Origin: Actinomycetes bacterium
GTDB lineage: Bacteria; Actinomycetota; Acidimicrobiia; Acidimicrobiales; RAAP-2
DNA: 9,050 nt
Direction: 5' to 3'
Assembly (NCBI GenBank): GCA_021800645.1
Contig: JAJYYT010000067.1
Coordinates: forward strand, 1 to 9,050
Within the stretch, counting starts at the first letter, position 1. Each line of letters starts with the position of its first letter. Below, piece by piece: positions 1 through 9,050 of this stretch. Under the pieces are notes generated by a model. It ran no database searches and was not told the origin of the DNA. It was given only the letters and a program-made list of their open reading frames with translations. The position numbers and the translations under genes were made by a program.

Positions 1-749
1 CCCGACCCGTACCGGCTTGCCCACGCGTCCATCGTGCCCACGACGACGGGAGCGCCCGGTCGCACCGGCCCCAGAGCCACGCGAGCCTCACCCAGCACCG
101 AGGTCATGGCGCGCAGCGGGGGGAGGAGCTCGGAGACGCCGGGCACCAGGGCCAGCGCGCCGGGCAGGTAGTCCCCGGTCTCGTCGACGAGACCGATCGC
201 GCTGGCGGGGTCGCTCGCGACCTCGCCGGTGAGCTTCGAGTTGCAGAAGTCCTTCGGCGACAGCAGCCAGCGGCTCCGTTCCAGCACCTCAGGACGCTCG
301 CTCGCGCACCAGGCGACCCTCGCGAGCGGCGACGAGGCGTCCACGTGGGTGGCAGATCCCCAGATGCGATCGCGCGCACGCTCGTCGATGGGGCGGTCGA
401 TCCCCTCAGCGAAGGGTGCGGCGCGCTGGTCCTGCCACACGATCGCGGGCAGCAGTGGTTCGCCTCTGGCGTCCACGAACACATGGGTGTTCACCTGGCT
501 GCAGATGCCGATGGCCGCCACTCGATCGGCGCCAGCAAGCCTGGCGACCTCTGCCACGACGCCCTCGATCGATCGCCACCACACCTGCGCCTCCTGCTCG
601 ACCAGTCCGGGCGCAGGCCGTTGCGTGGGGTACCGGGTGCTCGCCTGGCCGAGGGGACGCCCCGCCAAGTCGAAGAGCCCCGCCTTGATCGCAGTGGTGC
701 CGAGGTCGACGCCGAGCAGCAGCGGAGAAGGCGTTCGCCTGGCCATCAT
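1..749 (-). CDS. FGGY-family carbohydrate/polyol kinase, xylulokinase-like (C-terminus beyond window)
   Basis: Only the N-terminal 249 residues are visible; the reading frame runs open off the left edge, whereas family members are usually about 480-520 residues. Residues 13-18 (GVDLGT) form the FGGY ATP-phosphate loop, with Asp15 as the conserved acidic residue. Residues around 50-60 (PAPGLVEQEAQVWW) match the conserved Pro-Gly-x-x-Glu-Gln-x-x-x-x-Trp-Trp stretch, followed by PAIVWQDQR. Asp241 in VVVGTMDAW sits where the catalytic base of the family lies, just before the interdomain hinge. Such enzymes transfer the ATP gamma-phosphate to a hydroxyl of a sugar or polyol in the cytoplasm. The substrate-contact stretch reads CSQVNTHVFVD, not the SGQMHG of classical xylulokinase, so the substrate is left open. 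Two ATGs lie in tandem (749 and 746); GGGAGG at 754-759 is 4 or 7 nt upstream, so the second may be used. The gene follows the TrpA-like gene after 63 nt and is probably co-transcribed. Family assignment is firm; substrate is unknown. Confidence 0.9.
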   Translation of the reverse strand, partial: MMARRTPSPLLLGVDLGTTAIKAGLFDLAGRPLGQASTRYPTQRPAPGLVEQEAQVWWRSIEGVVAEVARLAGADRVAAIGICSQVNTHVFVDARGEPLLPAIVWQDQRAAPFAEGIDRPIDERARDRIWGSATHVDASSPLARVAWCASERPEVLERSRWLLSPKDFCNSKLTGEVASDPASAIGLVDETGDYLPGALALVPGVSELLPPLRAMTSVLGEARVALGPVRPGAPVVVGTMDAWASRYGS

Positions 750-753
750 CGCG

Positions 754-759
754 CCTCCC
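754..759 (-). promoter_or_regulatory. Ribosome binding site of the FGGY kinase
   Basis: GGGAGG lies 4 nt before the first and 7 nt before the second of two tandem ATG codons (749, 746). The spacing slightly favours the second. It supports a start here and independent translation initiation of the kinase, which unlike most genes of this operon does not overlap its upstream neighbour. Confidence 0.6.
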
Positions 760-766
760 GGCCGCC

Positions 767-810
767 ATCCCGGCCGTCCTCGCGGCTGCAATCCCGGCCG
801 TCCTCGCGGC
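767..810 (-). repeat. Two-copy tandem repeat, 24-bp period, between the TrpA-like gene and the kinase
   Basis: A 20-nt sequence, ATCCCGGCCGTCCTCGCGGC on the plus strand, occurs at 767-786 and identically at 791-810, separated by TGCA, giving a 24-bp period. It fills most of the 63-nt gap between the TrpA-like stop codon (813) and the kinase start (749), the longest non-coding gap in the window. There is no U-tract or strong hairpin that would suggest a terminator. It most likely arose by slippage in GC-rich DNA; a regulatory role is not shown. Confidence 0.8.
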
Positions 811-812
811 CC

Positions 813-1619
813 TCATCGCGCATCGAGCGCCCTGCGCACGTCGGCGATGAGCGTGGAGACCCGGGGCAAGCCGTCGAGCGCCGCTTCCAGGACGGCAGAG
901 CCGATGACGACGGCGTCTGCACCCAGCTCCACCACATGGCGGGCCGCTTCGGCGCCGGCGACCCCGAACCCGACCGCCAGCGGGACCTGGACCCCTGCCC
1001 GGCGGAGCGTGGCGAGCGCCCGAGGCAGCCTCGGGTCGGGGCCTCCCAACCGCACGCCGGTCCTCCCAGGCACCGCCTGCACCATCACGTAGCCCGACTT
1101 CGCTCCCGACGCCAGCGCGACGTCGGCCGGGTCGAGCTCGAGATCGAGGAAGCCGAGGAGCGGCACGCCGGCGGCGGCGAGCCACCGGCGGGGACCCGCG
1201 AGCCGACGCGGCGCCTCGGCAAGGAGCACTGCGTCCACCCCGCTGACCGCGACCTCCCGGGCCCAGCGCTCCCCGAGCCGCTCGGGATACCCCATCCAGA
1301 CGATCGCGTGTGCGCCGACCCGCTCGCGTAGGCCGGCGAGGAGCGCCACCGCTCGACGGCGGTCGACCCCAGCCGCTCGAGCACGCCGCATCGAGTCCGC
1401 GACCACCGGACCGTCGAGGCGAGGGTTGGCGGCGGGCACGCCGACCTCGAGGACGTCGGCGCCAGCTTCGAGCAGCGCTGTCGCCAACCCTTCGGGCACC
1501 AGCGGGTCACCGAGGGGCAGGTAGCACACGAGGCCGGGGCGGCCCTTGGCGAGCGCAGCGTCGAGGCGGGAGGAGGGGCTTGGCTCGCGCCCCGTCCCCC
1601 CGCCCTCGACTTCACCCAC
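813..1619 (-). CDS. Stand-alone tryptophan synthase alpha-like lyase (TrpA homologue)
   Basis: This 268-residue TIM-barrel protein matches TrpA in length and motif order. TrpA cleaves indole-3-glycerol phosphate to indole and glyceraldehyde-3-phosphate. Conserved here are the catalytic Glu (Glu58 in VLEVGVP, E. coli Glu49), the catalytic Asp (Asp69 in RLDGP, Asp60) and the phosphate-site residues: Thr187-Gly188, Phe218-Gly219 and Gly240-Ser241. Divergent are the loop-2 signature F-S-D-P, which reads A-A-N-P (Asn65 replaces Asp56, known to salt-bridge the beta subunit), the usual Tyr175 (a Met here), and the M-x-Y-x-N stretch, which reads MGYPE. No trpB, trpC or other tryptophan gene is nearby. 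The protein therefore probably acts alone as a retro-aldol lyase on a phosphorylated substrate other than, or as well as, indole-glycerol phosphate. The GTG start is preceded by AGAGGG 5 nt upstream. It lies 24 nt after the binding-protein gene and 63 nt before a kinase that could supply its phosphorylated substrate. Fold is confident; reaction is inferred. Confidence 0.88.
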   Translation of the reverse strand: MGEVEGGGTGREPSPSSRLDAALAKGRPGLVCYLPLGDPLVPEGLATALLEAGADVLEVGVPAANPRLDGPVVADSMRRARAAGVDRRRAVALLAGLRERVGAHAIVWMGYPERLGERWAREVAVSGVDAVLLAEAPRRLAGPRRWLAAAGVPLLGFLDLELDPADVALASGAKSGYVMVQAVPGRTGVRLGGPDPRLPRALATLRRAGVQVPLAVGFGVAGAEAARHVVELGADAVVIGSAVLEAALDGLPRVSTLIADVRRALDAR

Positions 1620-1643: not shown

Positions 1644-2849
1644 TCAGCGGAGCACCTGCGACCCGGTCTCGATCAGCTTGAACTGTCCATTCACGACCTT
1701 CATCACCGACAGCGAGGAGGGCAGCACGCCGGCGTGGACATGGGGGCTGAAGGTGAAGACCCCCGTCACGCCGGGGAAGTTCACCACCTTGGTCTGCAGG
1801 TACCGCTCGATCGCCGGTCCGTTGGTGCCCACTGCTCTCATCGCCCTCACCAGCAGGGTCACGCAGTCGTACATGTCCCCGGCGAACCGGTTGGCGCTTC
1901 CGTAGAGCTTCAGGAATGCCTGGATCGGGCCCTTCTGCGGGTTGCTCGGAGGAAGTGTCTTGAAGACGTTCACGTTCCCGCCTACCACGGTCACGCCGTT
2001 GGCCGCCGCTCCCACGGCCTTCGGGAATGTCCCGAGCGCGACCCCGTTGCCCTGGAACACCGGGACCTTGATGCCGGCCGACGCGATCTCACCTTGGATG
2101 ATGAAGGCGGTCGGGGGAATGCCGTAGACGAGGAGCGCCTGCTCGCCAGAGAGGCCCTTCACCCGCTCCAGGTACGACGTCAGGTTCGTCGATGTCGCCG
2201 GGTACATGATGGTGTCGAGCAGGGTCTGGTGGTTCGCCTTCGCCACCTTCTCGAACACGGGCAAGCCTTCCTGTCCGAACCCGTTGTCGATGCCCAGCCA
2301 TGCGATCTTGGTGATGCCGCGCTTTTTCATGTACCCGAGGGTGATCTCGGCCACGTTCGTCGGGGTCTCGGGGATCTTGAAGAAGTAGGGCGACGGCGGA
2401 TGGTTGAATGTCCCACCCCCGATGTCCGCCAGCGTCGGGACCTTGTACTCCTTGACGATCGGGAGGACGTCCTCACCCAGCGTCGTCGAGGTGATCCCGA
2501 GCAGCGCCACGACGTGATCCTGGGTGATCATCTGACGAACGTCGAGCAGGCCGGTTGTCGGGCTGGTCTTCGTGTCCATGATCTTCAGCTCGATCTTGCG
2601 GCCGTGCACGCCGCCGTGGGCATTGATCTGTGCGACGTACTCCTGGGCGGCCTTCGCGTCGGCTTGGCCGATTGGCGCCTCGCTCCCGGACAGCGCGACC
2701 GGCACACCGACGACGATCGGCCCCCCGGCCGACGACCTGTGGCTCGTGGAGGCCGCCGCCGGGCCCGAGGCGTACACCACCGTCACCGATGCCACGGCTG
2801 CCAACGCGGCCGCTGCTGCGAGCCGCCCTCTCGTTCTCCACATTCTCAT
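1644..2849 (-). CDS. ABC transporter substrate-binding protein, branched-chain amino acid (HAAT/LivJ-K) type
   Basis: This 401-residue periplasmic binding protein captures ligand outside the membrane for the LivH/LivM-G/LivF importer encoded just upstream. Residues 1-35 look like a Sec signal: basic MRMWRTRGR, then an Ala/Val-rich core, then small residues with likely cleavage around the ASGPAAAS segment. No lipobox Cys is present, so a soluble or otherwise retained protein is more likely than a classical lipoprotein. The mature part begins with the family pattern IVVGVPVALSGSEAPIG, continues with AINxxGGVxGR-like NAHGGVHGRKIEL (about 76-88), and contains DNGFGQEG, typical of the second lobe of Peripla_BP_6 proteins. 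The ATG start shares ATGA with the livF stop, and AGGGAG lies just upstream, so translation is coupled. Relatives bind leucine/valine, amides, or aromatic and aliphatic acids. The kinase and lyase downstream argue against assuming leucine. Fold and role are firm; ligand is unknown. Confidence 0.93.
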   Translation of the reverse strand: MRMWRTRGRLAAAAALAAVASVTVVYASGPAAASTSHRSSAGGPIVVGVPVALSGSEAPIGQADAKAAQEYVAQINAHGGVHGRKIELKIMDTKTSPTTGLLDVRQMITQDHVVALLGITSTTLGEDVLPIVKEYKVPTLADIGGGTFNHPPSPYFFKIPETPTNVAEITLGYMKKRGITKIAWLGIDNGFGQEGLPVFEKVAKANHQTLLDTIMYPATSTNLTSYLERVKGLSGEQALLVYGIPPTAFIIQGEIASAGIKVPVFQGNGVALGTFPKAVGAAANGVTVVGGNVNVFKTLPPSNPQKGPIQAFLKLYGSANRFAGDMYDCVTLLVRAMRAVGTNGPAIERYLQTKVVNFPGVTGVFTFSPHVHAGVLPSSLSVMKVVNGQFKLIETGSQVLR

Positions 2850-3712
2850 CTGCTCTCCCTTTCCTGTTCCTTCGCTCCGGACCGGAGCACCGACCTCGAG
2901 GTTCCCCCCTCTTCGACGCAGCCCTCTGCGGAGCTCCCTTCGGACACGCGCTCTACGACGCCCTCCACACGGTCCGTACCAGGCCCCCCGAGATAGGCGG
3001 CAAGCAGCGCCTCTTGGTCCAAGCTAGCCCCGGCACCCGCTTCGTGCACGATCACCCCCTGCTCCATCACGAGGAGGTGGTCGGCAAGAGCCATGGCCAG
3101 GCGGACGTTCTGCTCGACGATCAGCAGGGTCAGTCCTTGCCGGCGAAGCTCGTGCAGCGCGTCGGCCACCGCATCCACGACCACCGGGGCCAAGCCGAGG
3201 GACGGCTCGTCCACCATGAGCACCCGTGGAAAGCTCATGAGCCCGCGGCCGATCGCCAGCATCTGCTGCTCTCCGCCAGAGAGCGTCCCGGCTCGCTGGT
3301 CACGCCGCTCGGCCAGGATCGGGAAGAGCGCTTCTACCCGTTCGAGCTGCTCGAGCACCCTTCGGTCCCGTCCGAGCACGTAGCTGCCGAGGAGCAGATT
3401 GTCTCGCACCGACATCGAGGCGAAGAGCTGGCGACGCTCGGGGACGAGCACGAGCCCCCGCCGAACGTTCGCCTCGGCCTTCGAGCCGGTGATGGGCTCG
3501 TCGTCGAGCGACACGCTCCCGGCTGCAGGACGCACCAGCCCGGTGATCGCGGCGAGCAGGCTCGTCTTGCCAGCCCCGTTGGCGCCGACCACGCCAAGGC
3601 ACTCGTCTCGGTGGAGCGCGAGCGACACACCGCGCACCGCGCGGACCGCGCCGTAGGAGACGGCGAGGCCGTCGACCTGCACCAGCACCGGTCGATCGCT
3701 CGGCCCCTTCAC
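2846..3712 (-). CDS. livF: Branched-chain-type ABC transporter ATP-binding protein LivF
   Basis: This 288-residue cytoplasmic ATPase is the second nucleotide-binding subunit of the importer. Visible motifs are Walker A GANGAGKT (43-50), the LivF-type Q-loop region VPERRQLF (90-97), signature LSGGEQQ (144-150) and Walker B VLMVDEP (164-170). The switch position reads VEQN, with Gln201 replacing His, which is normal for LivF and separates it from the LivG domain upstream (VEHN). The family usually ends near AAYLG (about residue 242). Here a charged, Glu/Gly/Ser-rich tail of about 46 residues follows, without a recognisable motif. The start is GTG, overlapping the LivM-G stop as GTGA, with GGAGG 7 nt upstream. 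The stop overlaps the binding-protein ATG. Assignment is firm; the tail is of unknown function. Confidence 0.95.
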   Translation of the reverse strand: MKGPSDRPVLVQVDGLAVSYGAVRAVRGVSLALHRDECLGVVGANGAGKTSLLAAITGLVRPAAGSVSLDDEPITGSKAEANVRRGLVLVPERRQLFASMSVRDNLLLGSYVLGRDRRVLEQLERVEALFPILAERRDQRAGTLSGGEQQMLAIGRGLMSFPRVLMVDEPSLGLAPVVVDAVADALHELRRQGLTLLIVEQNVRLAMALADHLLVMEQGVIVHEAGAGASLDQEALLAAYLGGPGTDRVEGVVERVSEGSSAEGCVEEGGTSRSVLRSGAKEQERESR

Positions 3713-5859
3713 GCACCACCCTCCGGGACGTAGGAGACCTCTCCGGCAGGATCCCGAGGAGCCGGGGCTGCGCGGACCCGAGCATCGACGTGGCTCGTCC
3801 CGAGGTACGACTCGATGACGAGAGGATCTTTTCGAACCTCGTCGGGCAGCGCGGTCACGAGCTGCCTCCCCGAGGCCAGCACGGTCACGCGATCGGCCAC
3901 GTTCATAACTGCTCGCATGTTGTGCTCGACGAGGATCACCCCGAGCGACTCCCTCGCCAACGCCCGAACCAGCTCGACCAGCTCTTCGGCCTCACGGGCG
4001 CTGAGACCGGCGGCGGGCTCGTCGAGCAGCAGGACGTGCGGCTCCGCCGCCAACGCCCGCGCGATCTCCACGCGGCGCTGCTGGCCGTAGGGGAGCGTGC
4101 CGGCAGCCCGTGACGCGAACGTCGCCATCTCGACGCGCTCCAGGGCGTAGCCGGCTCGCCGGGCGAGGTCGCGCTCGTCGCGCCAGTGCCGGGGCAGACG
4201 AAGGATCGCCGAGAGCGCGCCGGCGTGCGCAGCGAGGTGTGCCCCGACCATCACGTTCTCGAGCACGGTCATGTCCGGGAACAGCTCGATGTTCTGAAAG
4301 GTCCGGGAGACCCCGTGGCGGGCAATCCGGTGCGGCGGCATCCCGACGACGTCCACCCCAGCGACGCGCACCGCGCCCGAGGACGGCCGTACGTGTCCCG
4401 ACAGGCAGTTGAAGAAGGTCGTCTTCCCCGCTCCGTTGGGGCCGATGAGACCGACCACCTCTCCTGGTGCGAGCTCCAGGCTCACACCGTCCAACGCCAG
4501 CAGCCCTTCGAAGCGGCACGTCACCTCGATCGCCTGGAGAAGGGGCGACGGGTCGCGCGCTCCCATGGCGGGGCTGGCGAAGACGACAGGAGGATCGGCG
4601 GCGGGGACGGGCGGGGCGGGCGGGGCGGCGGAGACGGGCGGTGCGGCGGGGACGGGCGGTGCGGCGGGGACGGGCGGGGCGGCCGGGGCGACAGGAGGAT
4701 CGGCGGCAGGGACGGCAACCAGGTCGGCGCTCCCTGGCGAGCCGGCGCTTGCAGCCCATGCTTCCGCCGCCGCCTTCGGCGCCGGTCGTCGCCGGGACTC
4801 GACGATGCGCCCGACCCACTGGCCGACGCTCGCCAGCCCACCGGGCAAGAGCAGCAGCACGAGGATCAGGACCACGCCGAAGCCGATCGTGGTGAAGTAC
4901 GCGGAATTGATGTGGACGACATCCGGTCCGTACGCCTGCAAGGCCTCCTGGAACATCACGACACCGAGGACGCCGAACGGCGCGCCCCAGATCGATCGCA
5001 ACCCTCCGACGACGGCCATGAGGAGGACCTCGACGGTGACGAGGATTGTGAAGGAGGCGGGGCCCACCACGCCGACGTAGTTCGCGTACAGGCTGCCCGC
5101 GACGCTCGCCATGAGGGCGCCGGTCACGAAGGCGACCACCTTGTAGTGCGTGGCGTTGACGCCCGAGGACGAGGCGGCGGCCTCGCTCGCTTCGACGGCC
5201 CTCAGCGCCCGTCCGGTGCGGCTCACCACGAGATTGCGAGCGACGACGAGCGAGACCAGCGCGGCCACGGTGCACAGGTAGAAGAAGCTGTTCTCGCCCC
5301 CGAGGAAGACGACGCTCCCGATCGACAGGCTGGGTCCGGCGCTGATGCCCGTCCCACCGCCGGTCAGCGGCGAGGTCTCGAAGACGATGTACGCGATGTA
5401 CCCGATGGCCAGGGTGACGAGGCCCAGGAGGTGACCGGTCAGACGGAAGACCATGATCCCGATGGCCGCAGCGCCGAGCCCGACCACGATCGCGGAGACC
5501 ACCAGACCCGCCCATGGGTTCAGACCCTGGTGGAGGGCCAGGATGGCCAACCCGTACGCCCCGACGCCGAACAAGGCGTTGGTGGCCAGCATGAGCTGTC
5601 CGCAGTACCCGAGGACGAGGACCATTCCCAAGGCGAGCATCGTGTAGATCGTGACGGTGATCCCGTCGTCGACCGACAAGAAGCCCAGCGCCGGCATCCA
5701 CTGGGGCATGGTGAAGAACACGGCTCCGACCACGACCAGACCGGCGATGGGCGCCCACCAGCGTTTGGCCAGCAGAGCGGGTGCTCCGAGCACCCCGACA
5801 GCGTCACGCGCCGTCCTGCTGCCCGCGCCGTCGGCCGATGGCGCGCCGAGCACGCTCAT
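3709..5859 (-). CDS. livM-livG: Fused LivM permease - LivG ATPase of a branched-chain-type ABC importer
   Basis: One 716-residue protein combines the inner-membrane permease LivM with the ATPase LivG. Residues 1-33 are a polar start. Roughly 34-350 is hydrophobic with several membrane spans and LivM landmarks: GYCGQLMLATNALFGVGAYG (84-103), SPLTGGGTGIS, and the cytoplasmic ATPase-contact loop TGRALRAVEASEAAA with GVNATHYK. About 354-435 is a Pro/Ala-rich linker containing tandem repeats. The LivG domain (about 438-690) has Walker A GPNGAGKT (473-480), signature LPYGQQRR, Walker B VLLLDEP (609-615) and switch His646 in VEHN. A 25-residue tail follows. The ATG at 5859 overlaps the livH stop as ATGA, with GGCGGTGA upstream. 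The frame stays open further upstream, but only inside livH. LivM-LivG fusions occur in other bacteria, so this is a known though less common arrangement. It fixes a 1:1 ratio of one permease to one ATPase, with LivH and LivF completing the transporter. Confidence 0.95.
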   Translation of the reverse strand: MSVLGAPSADGAGSRTARDAVGVLGAPALLAKRWWAPIAGLVVVGAVFFTMPQWMPALGFLSVDDGITVTIYTMLALGMVLVLGYCGQLMLATNALFGVGAYGLAILALHQGLNPWAGLVVSAIVVGLGAAAIGIMVFRLTGHLLGLVTLAIGYIAYIVFETSPLTGGGTGISAGPSLSIGSVVFLGGENSFFYLCTVAALVSLVVARNLVVSRTGRALRAVEASEAAASSSGVNATHYKVVAFVTGALMASVAGSLYANYVGVVGPASFTILVTVEVLLMAVVGGLRSIWGAPFGVLGVVMFQEALQAYGPDVVHINSAYFTTIGFGVVLILVLLLLPGGLASVGQWVGRIVESRRRPAPKAAAEAWAASAGSPGSADLVAVPAADPPVAPAAPPVPAAPPVPAAPPVSAAPPAPPVPAADPPVVFASPAMGARDPSPLLQAIEVTCRFEGLLALDGVSLELAPGEVVGLIGPNGAGKTTFFNCLSGHVRPSSGAVRVAGVDVVGMPPHRIARHGVSRTFQNIELFPDMTVLENVMVGAHLAAHAGALSAILRLPRHWRDERDLARRAGYALERVEMATFASRAAGTLPYGQQRRVEIARALAAEPHVLLLDEPAAGLSAREAEELVELVRALARESLGVILVEHNMRAVMNVADRVTVLASGRQLVTALPDEVRKDPLVIESYLGTSHVDARVRAAPAPRDPAGEVSYVPEGGA
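3720..3724 (-). promoter_or_regulatory. Ribosome binding site of livF
   Basis: GGAGG lies 7 nt before the GTG codon at 3712, inside the last codons of livM-livG. It supports the GTG whose first bases form the GTGA overlap with the preceding stop. Confidence 0.65.
4584..4715 (-). repeat. In-frame Pro/Ala-coding repeats in the LivM-LivG linker
   Basis: Three consecutive 18-bp units (4625-4642, 4643-4660, 4661-4678; about GCGGCGGGGACGGGCGGT) encode a repeated A-P-P-V-P/S-A hexapeptide. They are flanked by two 27-bp copies differing at one base (4584-4610 and 4689-4715), which encode VPAADPPVV and VPAADPPVA, 105 bp or 35 codons apart. All periods are multiples of three, so copy changes would lengthen or shorten the linker without breaking the frame. 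The product is an extended, probably unstructured hinge between the permease and ATPase domains. Confidence 0.85.
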
Positions 5860-6788
5860 ACCCGCGTCACCGCCAGCTGGCGGCTCAACCCACGCCGCCG
5901 GACGACGAGCAGGACGATCAGGAGCAGGAGGGGGATGACGTCGCCGTAGTTCGACCAGGAGGCGGGCGAGTAGGCGAGCACGATCGCCTCCAGCAAGCCG
6001 AAGCCCACCCCTCCGGCAACCGCCCCCACCGGGGACTCCACGCCGCCGAGGATCCACGCCACGAACGCCTTCAAGGTGATCGGGATCCCCATGTTGTAGG
6101 TGGCATAGGTCACCGGGACCACGATCGCTCCGGCGAAGGCCGCCAGGAGAGCCCCGACGGCGAACGCGATCGTCCAGTACCGGTCGACACGGATGCCGAC
6201 GAGACGGGCCGCCGTCGGGTTCACCTCGCAGGCCCGCAGCGCCTTTCCCGTCCTGGTGCGGGTCGCGCCGAACCACAGGAGCCCCATCACGATCAGGGTG
6301 GACCCGACGATCCAGAAGTCCTGCCTCGGGAGGAGGACCCCCGCGATCGACACCGCCGGGCCGGAGCTGAACGAACGCAGCCCGTAGGTGAGCGAACCGG
6401 TCGGGATGAGCGCACCGCCTTCGAGCAGCGAAGAGATGCCGATCGTCAGGATCAAAAGGAAGATCGTCCCGTAGCGGCGTCTGGGGAAGATCACGAGCAC
6501 CTCGAGCACGGCGCCCAGCGCCGTCGTGATCAGCACTGCCAGCACCACGGCCAAGGCGAGCGGCAGGCGGTGCGGATCCCCGTTGGGGCCGGCGAACAGG
6601 AGCGTGAGCATCGCGCCGACCATGAGGAAGTCCCCGACCGCGAAGTTGATGACCCCAGTGACGTTGTAGACCACGAGCAGGCTGACCGCGGCCAACGCGT
6701 AGATGCACCCGTTGACGACGCCGCCCACGAGGGTCTCCGGCAACTGACCGAGACCGGTCGCAAGAAGGACCGGCACGTGATCGATCAT
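5856..6788 (-). CDS. livH: Branched-chain-type ABC transporter permease LivH
   Basis: This 310-residue integral membrane protein is one of the two permease halves of the importer. LivH landmarks are NGCIYALAAVSLLVVYNVTGVINFA (about 26-50), GDFLMVGA, the cytoplasmic loop TRTGKALRACEVNPTAARLVGI (about 178-199) that contacts the ATPase, and the C-terminal GGVESPVGAVAGG (248-260), matching the usual GG-x-x-S-x-x-G-A-x-x-GG. Many LivH proteins read NFAHG where this one has NFAVG (Val51), a modest variation. The gene starts 16 nt after the E2 stop, which ties the importer to the dehydrogenase genes, and ends with ATGA overlapping livM-livG. Length and motif order fit the family well. Confidence 0.94.
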   Translation of the reverse strand: MIDHVPVLLATGLGQLPETLVGGVVNGCIYALAAVSLLVVYNVTGVINFAVGDFLMVGAMLTLLFAGPNGDPHRLPLALAVVLAVLITTALGAVLEVLVIFPRRRYGTIFLLILTIGISSLLEGGALIPTGSLTYGLRSFSSGPAVSIAGVLLPRQDFWIVGSTLIVMGLLWFGATRTRTGKALRACEVNPTAARLVGIRVDRYWTIAFAVGALLAAFAGAIVVPVTYATYNMGIPITLKAFVAWILGGVESPVGAVAGGVGFGLLEAIVLAYSPASWSNYGDVIPLLLLIVLLVVRRRGLSRQLAVTRV

Positions 6789-6804: not shown

Positions 6805-7866
6805 CTAGCTCGGGACGGACGGCCACGCCTCGATCCGGTCGATGACCGCCTGTAGGAAGGCTGCGGCGACCATCCCGTCGAGGTGACGATGGTCGAAGGT
6901 GATGGAGAGGTTGCCCATGCGGCGCACCACCACCGCGCCCTGGCTGGCCACCGGGCGTTCGGCGATCCGGTACAGGCCGAGGATCGCGACTTCTGGCACG
7001 TTCAGCAACGGCGTCGACCATAGGCCGGCGAGCCGCCCGGCGCTGGTGATGGTGAAGGTGGAGCCGGTCAGCTCCTCTGGACGCAGACTGCCGGCGCGGG
7101 CCCGCCCGCTCACGTCCCTGATCGCCTCGTCCAGCTCTGCCAGCGCCAGGGACTCGGCATGGCGAACCACCGGCACGACGAGCCCGGTGTCGGTCTGGGT
7201 GGCGATCCCCAGGTGCACCGAGGTCTGGGGCACCGCCTCTGTGCCCTGGGCGAGCATGTTCAAGCGCGGATGCTCGGGCAACGTCCGCGCCACCACGGCC
7301 GCGAGCGCGCTCAACGGGGAGACCCCCGAGGCGAGCACGCCCTCGAAGTCCGCCTCGTCGACGTTCGTGACGGTTGGCACGGCGGCTGCCCTGGTCAGCC
7401 GAGCCGAGATCACGGCGCGAGCCGGACGGCCACCCGCGACCCCCCCTGGGGTCGCTTCCTGCCCGCGATCGACAGCGGGCCCTGCGCCGTCGGCTTCCTG
7501 CCCGCGATCGGCAGCAGGCCCTCCGCCGTCGGCTTCCTGCCCGCGATCGGCAGCAGGCCCTCCGCCGTCGGCTTCCTGCCGGAGCTCGTCTCCGGGCTCG
7601 TGCCGGAGCTCGTCTCCGGGCTCGTGCCGCTCCAAGATGGCGATGACCGATCCCACCGGTACCACGGTCCCGGTCGCCGCGACCGCCTCGAGCAGCCGGC
7701 CGGTGACCGGCGAGGGGATCTCCACGCTGGCCTTGTCGGTCACCACCTCCACGAGGGGCTGGTCTTCGGTGATCGGCATGCCGGGGTCGACGAGCCAGCC
7801 GGCGATCTCGGCCTCGGCGATACCCTCGCCGAGATCGGGAAGTCGGAGCTCAGAGGTCGAGATCAT
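6805..7866 (-). CDS. 2-oxo acid dehydrogenase E2, dihydrolipoamide acyltransferase (compact, PSBD-less)
   Basis: This 353-residue E2 transfers the acyl group made by E1 from its lipoyl arm to CoA. An N-terminal lipoyl domain (about 5-80) carries the lipoylation site Lys45 in VVTDKASVEIPSP. Residues 81-140 are a repetitive Gly/Glu/Asp-rich linker. The catalytic domain (about 150-350) includes VHLGIATQTDTGLVVPVVR (217-235), STFTITSAG and the active-site FDHRHLDG with His326 and Asp330 of the H-x-x-x-D-G motif. The peripheral subunit-binding domain, normally between linker and catalytic core with a pattern like PAVRRLARE-x-G-V, is not recognisable. The first catalytic helix also looks shortened (VISARLTRAAAVPTVTNVDEADF). 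Typical E2s exceed 400 residues. ATG at 7866 overlaps the E1 beta stop as ATGA, with GGAGG about 10 nt upstream, and the gene ends in TAG 16 nt before livH. Acyl specificity is undetermined; the E1 partner suggests branched-chain or similar 2-oxo acids. Confidence 0.92.
   Translation of the reverse strand: MISTSELRLPDLGEGIAEAEIAGWLVDPGMPITEDQPLVEVVTDKASVEIPSPVTGRLLEAVAATGTVVPVGSVIAILERHEPGDELRHEPGDELRQEADGGGPAADRGQEADGGGPAADRGQEADGAGPAVDRGQEATPGGVAGGRPARAVISARLTRAAAVPTVTNVDEADFEGVLASGVSPLSALAAVVARTLPEHPRLNMLAQGTEAVPQTSVHLGIATQTDTGLVVPVVRHAESLALAELDEAIRDVSGRARAGSLRPEELTGSTFTITSAGRLAGLWSTPLLNVPEVAILGLYRIAERPVASQGAVVVRRMGNLSITFDHRHLDGMVAAAFLQAVIDRIEAWPSVPS
7454..7580 (-). repeat. 39-bp tandem repeat, about 3.2 copies, inside the E2 linker
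   Basis: Units at 7454-7492, 7493-7531 and 7532-7570 are followed by a 10-nt partial copy. The second and third units are identical; the first differs at three bases. Each encodes a 13-residue unit, GQEADGGGPAADR, in the E2 interdomain linker. Near-identity points to recent duplication, and the 39-bp period keeps the frame. This is not the Ala/Pro-rich linker usual for E2. Confidence 0.92.
7581..7628 (-). repeat. 24-bp perfect tandem repeat, two copies, inside the E2 linker
   Basis: GGAGCTCGTCTCCGGGCTCG plus TGCC occurs at 7581-7604 and identically at 7605-7628. It encodes the octapeptide RHEPGDEL twice (linker residues about 80-96, the second copy running into the 39-bp array). It is a separate expansion directly adjoining that array. 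Confidence 0.92.
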
Positions 7867-8876
7867 GCGAGCAGCTCCTCCACTTCGAGGGCGATCCGCT
7901 CGGGGTCGGGCAGGTACTCGCCCTCGAGCATGAACATGGGGAAGGGTACGTCGAGCCCGGCGATGCGCAGCACCGGGGCTCGAAGGGTCCCGGCGGCGCG
8001 CTCGGCGACGAGCGCGGCGACTTCGGCGCCGACGCCGCAGGATCTTGGTGCCTCGTGCACCACGACGCAGCGCCCGGTGCGCCGCACCGAGTCGATCACA
8101 GCCTCCTCGTCCAGAGGCCACAGCGTCCGCAGGTCGAGCACCTCGCAGGCGACTCCGCGCTCGGCCAGCGCGCCAGCAGCCTGGAGGCACAGCGGCACCG
8201 ATGGTCCGTAGCTGATCAGCGAGACGTCGCTGCCGGAGTGGACCACCTTCGCACGGGGAATGCCCTCGGGCTCGGGCTCCGGGCCGAGCGGGCCCCTGAC
8301 CGACCGGTACAGGCGCTTGGGCTCCATGAAGACGACGGGGTCAGGGTGCCCGATGGCCCAACGAAGGAGCGAGTAGGCGTCGGCGGGAGTGGAGGGGGTC
8401 ACGACCACGAGGCCCGGCACGTGGCAGAACAGCGCCTCGGGCGAGTCGCTGTGCAGCTCGGGCGCGTGAGAGCCGCCGCCGAAGGGCATCCGGAGCACGG
8501 CGGCCATCTCGACCGTGCCCGCGCTGCGCCAGCGGTACCTGGCCAGGTGGCAGACGATCTGCTCGAACGCCGGGTACGAGAACGAGTCGAACTGGAGCTC
8601 GACCACCGGACGCAAGCCGGCGAGGCACATCCCGATCGCAGCCCCGACGAAGCCCGCCTCGCACGCCGGCGTGTCCATGACCCGCTCCGCACCGAAGCGC
8701 TCCTGAAGACCGGCGGTCGCCCTGAAGACGCCCCCGGTCCGCCCGATGTCCTCCCCCAAGAGCACCACCCGAGGATCCGCGGCCAGCTCGGCATCCAAGG
8801 CGGCGGTGATCGCCCGGACGAGGGTCGTCGGCTCGCCGGGCGCGTCGATGCGCTGGGCAATGGCCTCGCGCCGCAC
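7863..8876 (-). CDS. 2-oxo acid dehydrogenase E1 component, beta subunit
   Basis: This 337-residue protein is the beta half of the thiamine-diphosphate E1 that decarboxylates a 2-oxo acid and loads the acyl group on E2. From the chosen start, the pyrimidine-binding domain shows LLGEDIG (39-45), GGVFRATAGLQERFG (48-62), DTPACEAGFVGAAIG (68-82) with Glu73 at the cofactor-activating position, and the LHSDSPEA loop with His142. The C-terminal transketolase-type domain includes DLRTLWPLDEEAV (248-260) and VVVHEAPRSCGVGAEV. GGVFR and FMEPKRLYR resemble branched-chain 2-oxo acid E1 beta more than pyruvate E1, but substrate is not provable. The GTG at 8876 is preferred because GGAGG lies 5 nt upstream and the length fits. 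GTG at 8930, or TTG at 8900 (TTGA overlap with the E1 alpha stop), would lengthen the protein. The stop overlaps the E2 ATG as ATGA. Confidence 0.92.
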   Translation of the reverse strand: MRREAIAQRIDAPGEPTTLVRAITAALDAELAADPRVVLLGEDIGRTGGVFRATAGLQERFGAERVMDTPACEAGFVGAAIGMCLAGLRPVVELQFDSFSYPAFEQIVCHLARYRWRSAGTVEMAAVLRMPFGGGSHAPELHSDSPEALFCHVPGLVVVTPSTPADAYSLLRWAIGHPDPVVFMEPKRLYRSVRGPLGPEPEPEGIPRAKVVHSGSDVSLISYGPSVPLCLQAAGALAERGVACEVLDLRTLWPLDEEAVIDSVRRTGRCVVVHEAPRSCGVGAEVAALVAERAAGTLRAPVLRIAGLDVPFPMFMLEGEYLPDPERIALEVEELLA

Positions 8877-8881
8877 TACGG

Positions 8882-8886
8882 CCTCC
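8882..8886 (-). promoter_or_regulatory. Ribosome binding site deciding the E1 beta start
   Basis: GGAGG is separated by CCGTA (5 nt) from the GTG at 8876. Neither the upstream GTG (8930) nor the TTG (8900) has a comparable motif at proper spacing. Confidence 0.55.
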
Positions 8887-8896
8887 ACCGGTGCGC

Positions 8897-9050
8897 TCAA
8901 CGCGCCGCCGCAGCCTTCGCGCGGCCCCACGACGGCGGCGGGACCGCAAAGACGTGCGCGGTGATGGACTCGGGCGCCGGGGCCGGCATCCGGTCGAGGC
9001 GGTGCCCGGCGGCCCGCATCGCCTCGGTCGCCTCCTCGTGCTCGGACTCG
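8897..9050 (-). CDS. 2-oxo acid dehydrogenase E1 component, alpha subunit (C-terminal 50 residues only)
   Basis: The frame enters from the right window edge and ends at TGA (8899-8897). The visible residues read ESEHEEATEAMRAAG, then MPAPAPESITAHVFAVPPPSW and a short Ala/Lys/Arg end. This resembles the C-terminus of E1 alpha: a Glu/Ala-rich helix, then a Pro-rich segment with an acidic or aromatic ending before the stop. Its position directly before E1 beta, 20 nt from the preferred start, is the standard E1 alpha-E1 beta-E2 order. The catalytic domain and the phosphorylation-loop region lie outside the window. The call rests mainly on gene order plus the tail composition. Confidence 0.75.
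   Translation of the reverse strand, partial: ESEHEEATEAMRAAGHRLDRMPAPAPESITAHVFAVPPPSWGRAKAAAAR

Follow-up and report, generated by a model that had tools for sequence, protein, structure and literature searches.

A TrpA-like protein and an FGGY kinase encoded as a conserved gene pair may act in uptake and cleavage of an aromatic glycerol, possibly indole-3-glycerol

Genes for a stand-alone TrpA-like protein and an FGGY carbohydrate kinase form a conserved pair in several bacterial phyla, and we propose that this pair, with the importers found beside it, serves the uptake, phosphorylation and TrpA-type cleavage of an aromatic compound with a glycerol side chain, with indole-3-glycerol as the likeliest substrate. 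We hold this proposal with about as much belief as doubt. The window, throughout this text, is the whole stretch of 9,050 nucleotides that was analysed, from the genome of an Actinomycetes bacterium (G000).

In the proposed pathway, the importer would take up the aromatic compound, the FGGY kinase would phosphorylate the terminal hydroxyl of its side chain, and the TrpA-like enzyme would then carry out a TrpA-type retro-aldol cleavage independently of TrpB. The D-glyceraldehyde-3-phosphate released would enter glycolysis, and the aromatic part would be available for local use, either by oxidation or, if it is indole, by tryptophan synthesis via TrpB. If the substrate is indole-3-glycerol, phosphorylation by the kinase would yield indole-3-glycerol phosphate, from which the lyase would free indole. 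We favour this compound on account of the oxygenase and trpB genes next to the pair and the mostly hydrophobic pocket of the TrpA-like protein; the substitutions at Tyr175 and Ala59, together with a Gln at position 181, leave room for a different ring. Against the proposal, GAPDH adjoins the pair in only one of 12 genomes and a divergent trpB in only three. The earlier note on this DNA had suggested that the kinase phosphorylates and the lyase then splits off glyceraldehyde-3-phosphate. Invariant catalytic and phosphate-site residues and a GAPDH gene beside the pair in one genome support that suggestion in part. Gene order, conservation, co-occurrence, kept residues and the predicted fold are shown; we regard the mechanism as well supported, but both reactions and the substrate are what we infer from sequence. 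Autoinducer-2 processing by LsrK and LsrF follows the same logic, with an importer, an FGGY kinase and then carbon-carbon cleavage. Here, however, the cleaving enzyme is a TrpA relative, and no other aldolase family was found among the proteins Pfam-scanned at the window and its contig.

TrpA is among the most studied enzymes, familiar mainly as one of the two halves of tryptophan synthase and, from plants, in the form of stand-alone lyases that serve defence compounds. If the proposal is true, a bacterial branch of TrpA, linked to a kinase and an importer, would put the same chemistry to catabolic use, a group of FGGY kinases would gain a function, and extracellular indole-glycerol or a similar aryl-glycerol would serve as a nutrient. 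The broader claim is of an undescribed salvage or catabolic pathway for indole-3-glycerol in several phyla, with a dedicated FGGY indole-3-glycerol kinase and a TrpB-independent bacterial lyase that would free indole for oxidation or tryptophan synthesis; this is tentative, and we lean slightly against it. Neither an FGGY-TrpA pair nor an indole-glycerol kinase is described among the matches listed in the open PMC literature, and PMC3245297 mentions neither TrpA nor tryptophan. Independence from TrpB would not in itself be new, since a passage of PMC9100643 describes some bacterial TrpA proteins as stand-alone lyases when expressed in Corynebacterium.

Gene organization of the window

All genes of the window discussed here lie on the minus strand. 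The TrpA-like gene (813..1619) encodes a protein of 268 aa that matches Pfam Trp_syntA at 104.4 bits (cut-off 27); it stands alone and is a predicted aryl-glycerol-phosphate or indole-3-glycerol-phosphate retro-aldolase. The kinase gene lies 63 bp downstream, and its N-terminal part (1..749, with the start near 749; FGGY_N, 114.5 bits) is in the window, past which the gene continues. Upstream of the TrpA-like gene are the genes of a complete Liv-type importer, which consist of the substrate-binding protein LivK (1644..2849; Peripla_BP_6, Pfam 157 bits), a LivF-type ABC ATPase (2846..3712; ABC_tran, 224 bits with the LivF model), a LivM permease fused to a LivG ATPase (3709..5814; BPD_transp_2 and ABC_tran in a single frame of 701 aa) and a LivH-type permease (5856..6788; BPD_transp_2, 132.7 bits). 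E1-beta and E2 genes of a 2-oxoacid dehydrogenase (6805..8930) are located upstream of livH, and the order of transcription is E1-beta, E2, LivH, LivM-LivG, LivF, LivK, TrpA-like protein and FGGY kinase. The proteins scanned from the window and its contig included no trp gene products. The G000 contig as available measures 14,798 bp, which falls short of the end position given for the window on it. Open reading frame and Pfam scans thus confirm the earlier description of an FGGY kinase gene after a TrpA-like gene, both downstream of a complete importer and without trp genes; that description had assigned the two genes to positions 1 to 1,619, an extent that holds the TrpA-like gene but that the kinase gene outruns.

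LivM and LivG share one open frame both in the window (3709-5814), where a Pro/Ala-rich linker is present, and at locus L118 (2665-5160), and the fusion apparently also occurs in the congener G004, judged by eye. We considered the E1-beta and E2 genes as members of the pathway and dropped them, as G004 instead has a PaaK-like CoA ligase gene directly upstream of livH; the G004 contig begins only 645 bases ahead of that ligase. Farther downstream of the pair (L003, 209-5168) are genes for an Nramp-like transporter, a TenA thiaminase, an NCS1 permease and a carbon-nitrogen hydrolase, possibly a thiamine or pyrimidine salvage cluster. These four, together with a downstream SDR and FAD oxidase, were also set aside as pathway members, since none was seen by eye beside the pair at other loci. 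The FAD oxidase and carbon-nitrogen hydrolase genes are on the strand opposite to the pair, and the SDR shares only about 31-35% identity with the complete SDRs found in the indole module described below.

Conservation and distribution of the pair

The kinase gene lies directly downstream of the TrpA-like gene, on the same strand and at gaps of -14 to +63 bp, at all 12 TrpA-like loci examined. These loci belong to Actinomycetota, Chloroflexota and a gammaproteobacterium, some with MAG labels of actinobacterium, Chloroflexi, Anaerolineae and Pseudomonadales. Nine of them (L005, L006, G004, G208, G742, G899, G909, G1021 and G1122) were found by their TrpA-like score alone, and every one of the nine had the kinase; two others (L009 and L074) were recognised through their kinase, and the twelfth is the window itself. 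Among 84 loci, a kinase at E<=1e-8 was present at the two loci from the same genome that cover this place and at four others, all with a TrpA-like gene, and at none of the remaining 78. The constant adjacency, together with the presence of the kinase among these 84 loci only where a TrpA-like gene stands, argues that the pairing is not due to chance. A neighbourhood comparison of the kind that the earlier note had called for therefore finds the adjacency conserved in relatives across several phyla. The two genes also co-occurred in a phylum sample of 396 genomes, where, among the matches listed, the TrpA-like gene and the kinase (E<=1e-80) were in the same two genomes when the best six and the best three candidates per genome were scored.

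The family around the window TrpA-like protein is small. A profile search returned at least 34 clusters at 205 bits or more, with the next match at 177 bits, and in the genome surveys its members scored at or above about 255 bits and every other match at 166 bits or less; one search of genome contigs returned mostly canonical trpA. The surveys found members in 2 of the 396 genomes of the phylum sample, in 1 of 229 from the class of the gammaproteobacterium, and in 2 of 129, 3 of 126 and 3 of 181 from the orders of G208, G483 and G481, respectively. Among 100 close relatives including G000, a single-protein search placed the gene only in G000 and its congener G004. The TrpA-like gene is thus rare and scattered. 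The contig of G899 starts at the pair. Five further TrpA-like/kinase pairs came from the protein database (P0003/P0123, P0006/P0125, P0014/P0149, P0016/P0158 and P0244/P0220), and the equal size of the longest contig in both members suggests that they are linked. The G208 kinase is identical in the tree to a database kinase of Gaiella occulta, and G208 is Gaiella occulta, which is in culture. As one of its carriers is a named species and the genes are short, the pair is open to direct testing.

The TrpA-like gene is not the sole trpA

We examined whether the TrpA-like protein could be a second biosynthetic TrpA whose gene adjoins the kinase by accident. Membership in Pfam Trp_syntA is what such a reading has in its favour. 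However, G000 (58.5% complete) has a further TrpA match elsewhere that scores 244 bits, as opposed to 104 for the window copy, and this canonical trpA is near trpC and trpF, as seen by eye. The gene of the window is therefore not the only trpA of its genome; the earlier note had named the absence of another trpA as telling against its own proposal. A lyase active on indole-3-glycerol phosphate alone, which the note had also named, would not make the pair biosynthetic, given that indole-3-glycerol is our leading substrate. In all seven pair genomes tested with the Pfam model, the separate TrpA copy scored 179-298 bits and the TrpA-like copy 97-143 bits; in G483 the TrpA-like copy matches in two pieces of 44 and 41 bits. 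For the remaining five pair genomes (G742, G899, G909, G1021 and G1122), the surveys likewise turned up a second copy of TrpA, for a total of 12 of 12. The window protein also scores 84.0 bits with the trpA equivalog TIGR00262, under its cut-off of 102.35, and the adjacency to the kinase spans phyla. We reject a second biosynthetic trpA, which the canonical copies in the pair genomes contradict and which we regard as extremely improbable.

Catalytic residues and pocket of the TrpA-like protein

TrpA acts by way of an indolenine tautomer, with Glu49 taking the side-chain hydroxyl proton and Asp60 serving the ring nitrogen as glyceraldehyde-3-phosphate leaves. Both residues are named as catalytic in passages of PMC9100643 and PMC11574760. 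We counted residues in 27 members of the TrpA-like family, including 15 of the homologs P0001-P0023; P0001 (equal to the window protein), P0002 and P0004-P0008 (close to others) and P0017 were left out. For comparison, 55 canonical TrpA proteins were drawn at random from 136, which had in turn been taken from 177 matches by length and unlikeness to the family. The equivalents of Glu49 and Asp60 are each present in all 27 TrpA-like proteins, as are three Gly residues and a Ser or Thr of the phosphate site. Since both acids and the phosphate site are kept, the natural reading is a TrpA-type cleavage of a phosphorylated glycerol side chain.

The pocket, on the other hand, is altered relative to canonical TrpA. 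At the equivalent of Tyr175, presumably an indole-pocket residue of TrpA, 26 of the 27 TrpA-like proteins have Met, compared to Tyr in all 55 canonical proteins. Leu or Met occupies the Ala59 position in 26 of 27 versus 9 of 55, and the residue at position 181, equivalent to Leu177, has become the polar Gln in 17 of 27. Most of the positions taken as the pocket side are hydrophobic or aromatic (Y33, W108, Y111, F157 and F218), and one loop is shorter than in TrpA. These changes at Tyr175, Ala59 and position 181 may mean that the true leaving group differs from indole. In the tree, 26 of the 27 proteins form a single clade without that of G484 (SH-like support 0.996), and support for all 27 is 0.601. 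Both catalytic acids are common to the TrpA-like proteins, TrpA and the plant stand-alone lyase BX1/IGL, but the TrpA-like proteins differ by Met for Tyr175, Leu or Met for Ala59 and Trp and Phe at two further positions, and their gene has importer and kinase genes for neighbours in place of trpB.

Changed pocket residues, and the ribulose-phosphate-binding barrel fold, which houses isomerases and epimerases, would also accommodate a protein that is no longer a lyase and instead isomerizes or epimerizes the product of the kinase. That seems very improbable to us, since the two acids that TrpA uses for cleavage are invariant in the 27 proteins.

The FGGY kinase and the importers

The complete kinase is encoded in G000 at C205:7748-9265 (505 aa, from the ATG taken) and matches FGGY_N (111.5 bits) and FGGY_C (133.6 bits), both over the cut-off. 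Xylulokinase TIGR01312 is the best curated model of the window kinase, at 265.5 bits and below its cut-off of 380.25, with gluconokinase as the other top model; the xylulokinase model also ranks first for three further pair kinases. The window kinase therefore has both FGGY domains in common with xylulokinases but scores under their equivalog cut-off, and no pentose isomerase was found among the proteins scanned. With the equivalog of the autoinducer-2 kinase LsrK (NF008187) it reaches 127.5 bits, versus a cut-off of 528. At least 1,775 FGGY kinases lie near the window kinase at E<=1e-60 and, against our proposal, far outnumber the sampled TrpA-like family. A plasmid search returned kinases at 43% identity to it, and no TrpA-like gene was found within 9 kb of the Rhizobium plasmid relatives. 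The 43%-identical kinase on a plasmid of Rhizobium sp. BG6 (L085, 322-10461) is accompanied by a divergent CUT2-type importer, without a TrpA-like gene, and by two amidohydrolase-like genes and one gamma-glutamyltransferase-like gene, named by eye. A TrpA match in Embleya also came up.

Importers of at least three classes are found beside the pair. A Liv-type importer is present in G000 and, by reading frames, in G004. Genes for a CUT2 sugar-type importer, assigned by reading frames, with the binding protein compared in G481 and G484 and the ATPase and permease scanned in G909, occur in G481, G1021, G1122, G483, G909 and G484. An NMT1/SsuA-like binding protein and permease are encoded in G208 and likewise, by eye, in G742. 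G482 has a TonB receptor and an AraC regulator upstream of the pair, and GntR-UTRA regulators are found at several pair loci. That unrelated importers accompany the same two enzymes suggests an imported compound as the substrate of the pair, and one that combines an aromatic group with a polyol would suit all of the importer classes.

The CUT2 importers at several loci would equally suit a sugar, and the main rival to our proposal is that the pair cleaves a ketohexose-type sugar, with the kinase making a ketose-6-phosphate and the TrpA-like enzyme splitting it by a retro-aldol reaction into glyceraldehyde-3-phosphate and a C3 ketone. A carbonyl would then replace the indolenine imine, and the same geometry might in principle accept a ketose-phosphate; the chemistry would agree with the kept acid residues. 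Ribose-type CUT2 importers with GntR-UTRA regulators, the xylulokinase and gluconokinase models of the kinase and the Gln at position 181 are also consistent with this possibility. However, most of the pocket positions examined are hydrophobic or aromatic, an indole-type monooxygenase gene follows the pair in two genomes, and we know of no TrpA-type ketose lyase that works without a metal or a Schiff base. On balance, we consider cleavage of a ketose unlikely.

Two further neighbours of the pair bear on the proposal. At L006, in the gammaproteobacterium, a GAPDH gene starts 67 bp after the kinase gene; it is one of four GAPDH-family copies and scores 410 bits (cut-off 367), and 420 bits with the erythrose-4-phosphate dehydrogenase model (cut-off 539). 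No GAPDH copy was found on the contig of the pair in the other 11 pair genomes. In G481, G1021 and G1122, the pair operon and trpB are divergently oriented, and in G481 and G1021 trpA lies behind trpB; these three genomes are near-identical relatives, so the divergent trpB counts about once.

An indole-type monooxygenase module beside the pair

In G742 and G208, members of one family, genes for an SDR and a group E flavin monooxygenase stand directly after the TrpA-like/kinase pair. The four genes are consecutive in G742, with an 11-bp overlap followed by gaps of 9 bp, and G208 has the same order with, in addition, a flavin reductase gene and a second monooxygenase copy that contains a stop. 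In G208 (L149, 12222-15456) the frame of the SDR gene behind the kinase gene is broken, and the stop in the second monooxygenase is in frame, either through decay or through draft-assembly error; the SDR of G742 is intact.

The G742 monooxygenase scores 609 bits with PDB 7z4x, which we take to be the indole monooxygenase VpIndA1, 522 with 9lrq, 190 with 9j0h and 151 with the styrene monooxygenase 3ihm. The structure paper of 7z4x is cited in PMC13101512, section 11 of which gives the indole monooxygenase fingerprint S46-Q48-M50-V/I73-I76-A96. At the first five positions of the fingerprint as printed in that section, placed by a constant offset of -1 in G742 and +2 in G208, both monooxygenases have S, Q, M, I and I, and neither protein has a styrene-type residue (N, V, H, Y or H) there; Ala is nearby at the sixth (A96), where the register is uncertain. 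The G208 enzyme also falls below the StyA equivalog, at 225 bits versus 550.

Such an oxygenase, at more than 300 bits, occurs in 7 of 129 genomes of the G208 order (one of them partial), including both TrpA-like carriers. SDR-monooxygenase pairs without a TrpA-like gene are present in G798, G814 and a second place in G208, and the complete SDRs of the SDR-oxygenase pairs are 73-79% identical to one another. It therefore seems that an indole-oxidation module has been joined to the TrpA-like module. The monooxygenase is present in only two of the 12 pair genomes, and it was not found in G000 (58.5% complete) or its congener G004.

These oxygenases also bear on whether the substrate is another aryl-glycerol, such as lignin-derived guaiacylglycerol, cleaved by the same mechanism with a phenol as the released arene. 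The pocket altered relative to canonical TrpA would allow for this, and the Liv-type importers and the PaaK-like CoA ligase upstream in G004 are of kinds common in aromatic catabolism. However, inspection of the pair loci by eye showed no genes for phenol degradation, and the oxygenase at both oxygenase-bearing loci is of the indole type. We judge a substrate of this kind to be distinctly unlikely, and indole-3-glycerol to be the better candidate.

The iif indole oxidation operon of Acinetobacter, as presented in part of PMC4577076, encodes the SDR IifB, the oxygenase IifC and the flavin reductase IifD. An SDR and an oxygenase are likewise found in G742 and G208, and a flavin reductase also in G208, but the iif operon of that account stands alone, whereas the module in these two genomes is joined to genes whose products would release indole from a compound taken up from outside. 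Relatives of Gaiella (L200, L201 and L202) carry an SDR and an indole-type monooxygenase without a TrpA-like gene, in one case beside an AraC-like gene, as judged by eye. These pairs suggest that indole oxidation extends beyond the organisms named in that part of PMC4577076.
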